Shown: piece after piece, positions 3,240-5,789 of the stretch | How the letters are laid out: the number at the start of each line of letters is the position of its first letter | Numbering within the stretch: position 1 is the first letter of the stretch | Assembly (NCBI GenBank): GCA_040757115.1 | Contig: JBFLYA010000236.1 | Location: 1-5,789 of the forward strand | Length of the DNA: 5,789 bases | Direction of reading: 5' to 3' | Source of the DNA: a bacterium | GTDB taxonomy: Bacteria; UBA9089; CG2-30-40-21; SBAY01 | Program-made: the position numbers and the translations under genes | The notes under the pieces: generated by a model | The model's input: only the letters and a program-made list of their open reading frames with translations | Database searches by the model: none | What the model was told of the DNA's origin: nothing

Positions 3240-3259
3240 TGAATACCCTCCTTTTTTTT

Positions 3260-3328
3260 CACCGCAGAGACGCAGAGAACGCAGAGAGAGAGATTATATT
3301 TTTCTGTGACCTCCGCGCCTCTGCGGTG
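3260..3328. repeat. Inverted-repeat element, CACCGCAGAG family (copy 1)
   Basis: CACCGCAGAG (3260-3269) is perfectly complementary to CTCTGCGGTG (3319-3328). Beyond the perfect 10 bp the arms continue imperfectly (left ACGCAGAG, right arm read in reverse GCGCGGAG). The left arm also holds internal direct repeats (ACGCAGAGA, ACGCAGAG, AGAGAGAG). It fills most of the ruvB-nikR spacer and ends only 6 nt from the nikR Shine-Dalgarno. On the minus strand it is followed by an A8 run, so it does not look like a rho-independent terminator for ruvB. The loop contains a perfect minus-strand TATAAT (3293-3298), but no -35 is visible at the right distance. Confidence 0.85.
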
Positions 3329-3364
3329 CATTACCCCTTAATCTGGAAATGTGCCAGGTTCAAT

Positions 3365-4565: not shown

Positions 4566-4578
4566 TTAAACTAATTTT

Positions 4579-4718
4579 GTAACCGTTTAGATAGTAATTC
4601 ACCGCAGAGACGCAAGAGTTTACAGAGAAGACATAGAAATAAATCAATTTTTCCCTCTTGAGAGGGGGTAGAAGTCTGTTTTTCTCTGCGTCTCTGTATC
4701 TGTGCGGTGAACGGTTAC
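4579..4718. repeat. Inverted-repeat element, CACCGCAGAG family (copy 2), with GTAACCGTT ends
   Basis: The outer arms GTAACCGTT (4579-4587) and AACGGTTAC (4710-4718) are perfect complements. The inner arms TTCACCGCA (4598-4606) and TGCGGTGAA (4703-4711) also match, and further in AGAGACGCA pairs with TGCGTCTCT-type sequence around 4688-4695. The left end carries about 10 extra nucleotides (TAGATAGTAA) between outer and inner arms that the right end lacks. The centre has a small hairpin CCCTC-TTGA-GAGGG (4653-4666). The element shares its core with 3260-3328 and makes up most of the predicted queH 5' leader. No ORF is inside, so it would be a non-autonomous element or a structured RNA rather than an insertion sequence. 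Confidence 0.85.
4708..4718 (-). repeat. Junction motif GTAACCGTTCA at the edge of the inverted-repeat element
   Basis: The minus strand reads GTAACCGTTCA, differing at one base from GTAAGCGTTCA at 112-122 and 5296-5306. Read in that direction it leads straight into CACCGCA of the inverted-repeat element. The opposite end of the element begins GTAACCGTT followed by TAGA, a partial copy. Confidence 0.6.
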
Positions 4719-4770
4719 GACGAAAACACTAAATACATACAATCGTCCTCTTACCTTTTTTGAGGTATTT

Positions 4771-5346: not shown

Positions 5347-5367
5347 CTAAAAAAGCAAACTAATTAT

Positions 5368-5442
5368 CGGGGCTCGGGACTCGGGACTCGGGGCTCGGGG
5401 CTCGGGACTCGGGGCTCGGGACTCGGGGCTCGGGACTCGGGA
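5368..5442 (+). repeat. G-rich 7-nt tandem array (CGGGGCT / CGGGACT)
   Basis: Ten complete 7-nt units plus a partial. With A = CGGGGCT and B = CGGGACT the order is A B B A A B A B A B. The units differ only by G/A at the fifth position, and no unit has an indel, so the array is recent or homogenised. The plus strand has eleven runs of 3-4 G separated by 3-4 nt, matching the standard G-quadruplex pattern. It begins about 22 nt after the queH stop and would be in the 3' part of its transcript. Confidence 0.95.
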
Positions 5443-5468
5443 ATAAAAGAATTCCTTAACCCTTAAAT

Positions 5469-5487
5469 CCGAACCCCGAACCCCGAT
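5469..5487 (-). repeat. Inverted relative of the 7-nt array
   Basis: On the minus strand this reads ATCGGGGTTCGGGGTTCGG, i.e. CGGGGTT units, close to the CGGGGCT units on the plus strand. Consequently ATCGGGGCTCGG at 5366-5377 can pair with CCGAACCCCGAT at 5476-5487 with one mismatch. The array therefore has an inverted terminus, in the manner of the inverted-repeat elements elsewhere in the window. Confidence 0.7.
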
Positions 5488-5524
5488 TTTCAGGGGAAAC
5501 GGACATGAGCCAGGGCTCACAAAG
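5486..5524 (+). other. Conserved hairpin element (copy 1)
   Basis: This 39-nt block starts ATTTTCAGGGGAAACG, then CATGAG, and ends CTCACAAAG. It matches the block at 5653-5692 at about 33 of 40 aligned positions. Its centre folds as TGAGCC-AG-GGCTCA, a 6-bp stem. Relative to copy 2 one base pair changes from C-G to T-A on both sides and the loop is one base shorter, consistent with selection on structure. It begins exactly where the inverted 7-nt relative ends. The family is not recognised. Confidence 0.7.
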
Positions 5525-5557
5525 GGCAATGAAAATGGGAGAAGGACAACCCCCTAA

Positions 5558-5575
5558 CCCCCTTTATTAAGGGGG
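5558..5575. other. Hairpin CCCCCTT-TATT-AAGGGGG
   Basis: A perfect 7-bp stem with a 4-nt loop, preceded by a further CCCCCTAA (5550-5557). No T-run follows on either strand, so a rho-independent terminator is unlikely. It could still stabilise the 3' end of the queH transcript. CCCCCTAACCCCC-type blocks are frequent intergenic repeats in many bacteria. Confidence 0.55.
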
Positions 5576-5619
5576 AATATGTGTTCTAAACCAGAGGATA
5601 CGAGTCTGTGGATACTATA

Positions 5620-5652
5620 CTAATTCGCTAATCTCTAATTCACTAATTCGCT
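5620..5652. repeat. Tandem array of CTAATTCG / CTAATTCA / CTAATCT units
   Basis: Units CTAATTCG, CTAATCT, CTAATTCA, CTAATTCG and a partial CT follow one another with period 7-8. The array runs directly into the second hairpin element, just as the G-rich block runs into the first. Confidence 0.8.
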
Positions 5653-5692
5653 ATTTTCAGGGGAAACGCTCATGAGTCTGCGACTCACAAAG
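5653..5692 (+). other. Conserved hairpin element (copy 2)
   Basis: This 40-nt block shares ATTTTCAGGGGAAACG, CATGAG and CTCACAAAG with 5486-5524 and folds as TGAGTC-TGC-GACTCA. The stem is preserved although its fifth pair differs from copy 1. No ORF crosses it with recognisable content. The role is unknown; a mobile-repeat terminus, a protein-binding hairpin or a structured RNA segment are all possible. Confidence 0.7.
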
Positions 5693-5707
5693 TCTTATGG
5701 TGAAATG

Positions 5708-5749
5708 TCAAGTAAAAAATTAAGTTTTTTTAAAAATATTTTTCTTGAC
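5708..5749. other. AT-rich dyad with CTTGAC ends, possible promoter region of a gene beyond the window
   Basis: GTCAAG (5708-5713) and CTTGAC (5744-5749) form a perfect 6-bp inverted repeat around an A/T-only core, with the adjoining A and T runs adding imperfect complementarity. TTGACT at 5745-5750 is a fair -35, but no convincing -10 is found 16-19 nt downstream; TAGTAT at 5775 is too far. Promoter function is therefore doubtful. Confidence 0.35.
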
Positions 5750-5789
5750 TTATATCCCTAAAAAGGCACAAAAATAGTATGTTCGGATA

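Follow-up and report, generated by a model that had tools for sequence, protein, structure and literature searches.

Small palindromic repeats are common in bacteria, and their origin and movement are mostly unclear. Two described groups come closest to the element presented here: the non-autonomous derivatives of the IS200/IS605 insertion sequences (Y1/HUH transposases), including palindrome-associated ones, and the REP/BIME repeats of the GTAG and CGTC super-families. IS200/IS605 elements integrate 3' of a short target and do not duplicate it (PMC8612924), and REPs are themselves targets of IS621 and other insertion sequences (PMC1525189). More distant comparisons are the Rickettsia palindromic elements, which insert in frame in unrelated protein genes, the BOX elements of Streptococcus pneumoniae, generally known as modular intergenic repeats with variable inner parts, and the HEARO / IscB-associated elements. 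HEARO integrates at ATGA or GTGA.

We analysed a stretch of 5,789 nucleotides of a bacterial contig (the window), in which an earlier note had described two similar hairpin blocks. The two hairpins are left ends of a small dispersed repeat element, here called R. Like the Rickettsia elements, R is found in frame in unrelated protein genes (three cases), but it appears to differ from them in sequence, most of its copies are intergenic, and in the genus of the window genome it lies at Shine-Dalgarno-like sites; the CGTC tag of the Rickettsia palindromic element/CGTC repeats does not occur in our alignment of R (A1). The modular build with variable inner parts recalls BOX, as known in general terms, although the sequences are unrelated. 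The HEARO site resembles the target of R outside this genus; HEARO RNA (RF02033) matched 0 of 19 genomes, and the control genomes were silent as well.

The hairpin blocks and the layout of R

The two blocks are real, and the alignment of 5486-5524 with 5653-5692 has 34 identical positions, 5 mismatches and a single gap of 1 nt, where about 33 of 40 shared positions had been noted. The stem of the first block is TGAGCC-AG-GGCTCA (5506-5519) and that of the second TGAGTC-TGC-GACTCA (5673-5687), and they include the compensatory pair noted earlier, C-G in one block and T-A in the other, with both partners changed. An R element follows its target and consists of AACGNNCATG, hairpin 1, CACAAAGGRNGATGAAAAT, a cargo, and ATTTTCAG with a copy of the target core; compared with one another, many copies show first GAAACGNNCATG, then a stem of 6 bp, CACAAAGGRNGATGAAAAT, the cargo and ATTTTCAG, followed by GGAGA or RTGA. 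Hairpin 1 has a conserved foot and a variable stem, with GNNCA-stem-CACAAA at its feet in alignment A1. In hairpin 2, GATGAAAAT can pair with ATTTTC, and the cargo sits between these two conserved ends; in a minimal element (L155, 35 nt tested) hairpin 2 folds with z -3.84, and its nearly invariant stem leaves it without covariation support.

The cargo differs among copies. Intact cargo mostly takes the form of a long imperfect palindrome with short tandem repeats as its arms (for GAGATTAGAGATTG.../...CTAATCTC, z -4.88); in two further cases the cargo did not fold clearly better than its shuffles (z -1.5 and -1.9). R elements chain head to tail, with conserved ends around different cargo, and particular hairpin variants tend to accompany particular cargo, which suggests that whole units move. 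The right-hand part of the window holds such a chain, as follows.

5366..5485, + strand: cargo of element 1, an imperfect palindrome with a CGGGRCT array as left arm and CCGAACC repeats as right arm
5486..5497, + strand: right end of element 1, ATTTTCAGGGGA, doubling as insertion target of element 2
5496..5536, + strand: left end of element 2, made of GAAACGGACATG, hairpin 1 (5506-5511 with 5514-5519) and CACAAAGGGCAATGAAAAT; covariance model E 5.9e-12
5537..5652, + strand: cargo of element 2, a CCCCCTAACCCCC...AAGGGGG hairpin and a CTAATTCG array
5653..5664, + strand: right end of element 2, ATTTTCAGGGGA, doubling as target of element 3
5663..5692, + strand: left end of element 3, made of GAAACGCTCATG, hairpin 1 (5673-5678 with 5682-5687) and CACAAAG; covariance model E 6.9e-6
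5693..5789, + strand: left end of an IS110-family insertion sequence within element 3; the contig ends inside it

The cargo of element 1 folds with z -2.98 (1 of 200 shuffles was equally good), and no recognisable hairpin 1 stands to its left; element 1 appears to be truncated on that side, and elsewhere in the genome (e.g. at L227) its cargo type occurs behind a left end that is intact. The left end of element 2 (the GGCAATGAAAAT form) is seen again at many loci, as is its cargo at others (e.g. L009, L016 and L020). This whole cargo folds no better than shuffles (z 0.17); it is apparently chimeric and not a single long palindrome, and the CTAATTCG array resembles the right-hand arm of a cargo in which other sequence took the place of the left arm. 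For the left end of element 3 there is an exact 35-nt copy elsewhere in the window genome (contig C24); the element is interrupted right after CACAAAG by the IS110-family insertion, and its own cargo lies outside the window.

Each block does begin at the end of a repeat array, as had been noticed, and it does so because the preceding element's cargo has this array as its right arm. The CGGGRCT array is an arm of palindromic cargo, and the arrays are therefore cargo of the preceding element; they had been taken for partners of the hairpin that follows, and this assignment has to be given up. The idea of a modular element holds in that a conserved part is joined to variable sequence, but the joining to tandem arrays is not random. 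The unit itself had been drawn too short, as each element starts with its own hairpin 1 and extends to the right as far as the next ATTTTCAGRRGA.

To assess hairpin 1 we compared 39 different sequences, of which 17 belong to this genus and 22 to other lineages. Stem cells are paired in 94.3% of cases against 69.6 ± 2.0% after shuffling, 53 cells are changed on both sides against 17, and the covariation score is 0.561 against 0.117 for shuffled sequences and at most 0.148 for slid structures. Kinship among the sequences inflates covariation counts, yet the slid control, which keeps the kinship, scores far lower. Two base pairs at the stem base are invariant, T-A and G-C. The selection on structure proposed earlier from a single pair is supported by this covariation; further copies exist, the stem is kept in them, and the association with arrays is present. 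A covariance model built from the 39 sequences, a training set that contained both window stem types, matches both blocks at the E values given above, and no other place in the window scores better than E 0.1.

The window also holds other repeated sequence. At 4578-4723, GTAACCGTT...AACGGTTAC inverted ends flank a CACCGCAGAGACGCAGAG-type palindrome, which looks like a second palindromic element family; the same cargo type lies at 3259-3335 and there is not accompanied by those inverted ends. Within 1-130 (L186), the segment from TGTGGAAAACAACAAATTTCC to CACCTGAACGCTTAC has a second, reverse-complemented occurrence on contig C14 of the window genome.

Downstream of the second hairpin

The sequence from 5693 has 22 near-identical copies, all of which reach contig ends. 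Its inner end encodes a 50-aa fragment of an IS110 transposase (NCBIfam NF033542, E 6.4e-6, a match below the curated cut-off of the family because the fragment is cut by the contig end), and Pfam gave no match. Most copies are preceded by an R hairpin, whose stem differs from copy to copy, two lie outside R and have no hairpin (L060, L062), and in 17 of the 19 readable copies the opposite end resumes at GRSGATGAAAAT of R. The sequence from 5693 is thus an IS110-family insertion that targets R. The reverse relation, in which the hairpin is the left end of a large multicopy IS110-family insertion and R its deletion derivative, would account for the hairpin before most copies. We consider it highly improbable, because the insertion is near-identical among copies while the hairpin stem varies, two copies lack the hairpin, the opposite ends resume inside R, and R is present in genomes in which no such insertion sequence is seen. 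The large multicopy insertion was also considered as an autonomous form of R and was ruled out by its junctions. The body of the IS110-family insertion (L188-L207, about 20 copies) is absent from the assembly, so many contigs break at R.

Copies, empty sites and targets

The window genome comprises 4.3 Mb in 462 contigs. A pattern derived from the copies, with up to 3 mismatches, has 39 matches in this genome against 0 for the reversed control, and the right-hand junction ATTTTCAGRRGAA has 249 against 1. Exact left ends (GAAACGNNCATG...CACAAAKG) number 100 in the window genome; a sister genome from the same genus has 68, the controls have 0, and 59 further genomes, among them the other members of the phylum that were searched, have none; counts made within loci cover selected genome stretches, not the full genome. 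A scan across phyla of 84,980 genomes with a long left-end pattern (about 27 specified positions) found 23 stretches, where fewer than 0.001 are expected by chance by our estimate. They come from MAGs labelled Syntrophaceae, Syntrophus, Deltaproteobacteria, Pseudomonadota, Nitrospirae/Nitrospiria, Nitrospira and Chlamydiae, and from one unassigned bacterium, labels that may hide misbinning of single contigs, though several of the genomes hold many copies. In 11 of these MAGs there are 58 exact left ends against 0 in reversed controls, and several R-bearing MAGs each use one dominant stem of their own. This patchy presence across phyla points to horizontal spread. Plasmid and phage collections contain no match to the minimal R element, and a published-sequence search with the left-end sequences found no paper. 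Six matches of a short left-end pattern in viral contigs were judged to be chance, all of them lacking GATGAAAAT.

That R is a mobile, site-specific DNA element is well supported. Beside rnpB, three chained R elements are present in the sister genome G001 (L110), whereas the window genome (L274) reads uninterrupted ...GGAGAATAGGAGAAAGAAGAATC... at the same site; AGGAGAAA is single in the empty site and stands at both ends of the filled one. This is the one empty site seen in DNA, and it compares two sister genomes. Proteins tell of further insertions. A KBL/BioF-type protein (L263) carries 106 additional residues (312-417), with R read in frame, and the flanks align to the adjacent residues 320 and 321 of solved homologues. 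CheA (L149) likewise has extra residues at its R element, read in frame, and in a LolA-like ORF (L144) the frame is open through R.

These observations also bear on another possibility, a role for R as a conserved cis-regulatory RNA in 5' untranslated regions, which the covarying stem with conserved flanks, and the right ends that in this genus often lie just before start codons, would fit. Such a role is hard to reconcile with an exact empty site, in-frame insertions in unrelated proteins and copy numbers that differ strongly between genomes; R has no match in Rfam, no common class of downstream gene was seen, and we regard this explanation as very improbable.

The target can be read from the flanks. 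Among 40 distinct left flanks of this genus, only A (32/40), G (35), G (39) and A (36) are conserved before GAAACG, with no conservation further left of AGGA. Of 33 left flanks from other lineages, 28 read TGAAACG, and left flanks like CAAGAAACG do not match the right end GGATGA. Because such left flanks are unlike the right end, the right target copy belongs to the element and the left flank to the host, which shows that the target of R is one-sided. On the sequence of its flanks, R in this genus enters Shine-Dalgarno-like AGGAG sites, and its right end restores AGGAG. A start codon with a frame of at least 40 codons lies 1-12 nt downstream of 28 of the 63 terminal right ends in this genus; at random positions the rate is 9%, and at AGGAGA sites other than these it is 72 of 408. 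Outside the genus we find no such enrichment, as an open frame of 50 codons or more goes with 9 of 33 there and with 32% of RTGA sites overall. A preference for start codons as a general trait of R, first suggested by a few cases, was accordingly dropped, the counts showing it for this genus only. No change in a guide sequence was recognised that would account for AGGAG versus TGAA targets.

Candidate mechanisms of movement

The R elements probably form a new family of hairpin elements, non-autonomous and site-specific, that is moved in trans in the manner of IS200/IS605. Its asymmetric hairpin ends, fixed orientation, one-sided target, precise insertion and chains match IS200/IS605 transposition, and R further resembles the IS200/IS605 derivatives in having a hairpin near each end, in insertion 3' of a short target without duplication and in a right end that resembles the target. 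We infer that a single-strand transposase acting in trans would recognise the R hairpins, excise the element and insert it 3' of the short target, as do the Y1/HUH enzymes of IS200/IS605. As the right end finishes in the target, further elements could insert there and chains would grow. In this genus, with AGGAG as target, insertion would often fall in a Shine-Dalgarno site of which the right end restores one, and in other lineages, where the target is mostly TGAA, it would sometimes fall in a start codon region or in frame within a gene. The spread of R would then be explained by tolerated insertion sites rather than by a host function.

R differs from the IS200/IS605 derivatives in its lineage-dependent target combined with an unchanged left end, in its exchangeable palindromic cargo and long chains, and in that no linked Y1 transposase was found. 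At about 50 Y1 transposase loci (from the window genome, its relatives and the 11 R-bearing MAGs) the flanks are without R ends, a search limited by the incompleteness of MAGs. G104, a MAG of incomplete status, carries 26 exact R copies and gave no Y1 match. A Y1/HUH-type identity for the enzyme that would move R is not well supported.

Several of the loci examined have peculiarities of their own. In L183 (C7, about 1600-2500) a Y1-type transposase gene lies among GTGCGAATAATAGACCTGATGAATAAGGGATTGCGAC repeats resembling a CRISPR array. In L113 (C205) a long open frame, reported as 1120 codons with 634 of them inside the locus, has a Y1 transposase match (E 2.9e-44) at its end; the sequence is otherwise unrelated and more GC-rich, possibly a fusion or a foreign contig. 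Positions 1-107 of L146 match a Group II intron RNA (RF02003) at the locus edge.

The enzyme could instead be a REP-associated tyrosine transposase (RAYT) encoded elsewhere in each genome, with R as a REP-like element. Like REPs, R consists of short, high-copy, clustered palindromes with lineage-specific stems, mostly between genes, occasionally in frame, and serving as an IS110-family target (PMC3733652, PMC1525189), and Y1/RAYT-like genes occur in the window genome. We consider this reading unlikely, since no GTAG or CGTC tag stands at the foot of the palindrome beside the stem (alignment A1; definition in PMC3733652), and since R has a second conserved end around a cargo, a defined target and a precise empty site. 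The GTAG families have a RAYT gene flanked by the repeat, but no RAYT of these genomes is flanked by R; the one in G105 sits among its own GTAG-type repeats, and G104 has R with no Y1 match. The RAYT gene of G105 (L163) lies amid GTAGGACAGGCGTCTCGCCTGTC-type repeats, which are also the cargo of an R element (L246) in the same genome.

A somewhat less doubtful alternative is an enzyme outside both Y1 and the known transposases, for instance an integron-like site-specific recombinase that acts on folded single strands and swaps cargo between conserved ends. Conserved ends joined head to tail around different cargo, and the lack of an R-linked Y1 gene, would be expected from such an enzyme. No candidate for it was found, however, and the tendency of hairpin variants to go with particular cargo suggests movement of whole units. 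We also propose, only tentatively, that R represents a widespread undescribed class of elements with hairpin ends and exchangeable palindromic cargo, whose target may have shifted between lineages, TGAA giving way to the Shine-Dalgarno core while the right end changed accordingly, and which might be moved by a kind of enzyme not previously linked to such elements.

The ends of R are sharply defined, its empty site is precise, and its target differs between lineages in step with its right end, which makes target choice directly testable. An element that enters and restores a ribosome-binding site would put hundreds of foreign leaders before genes, with possible effects on translation.
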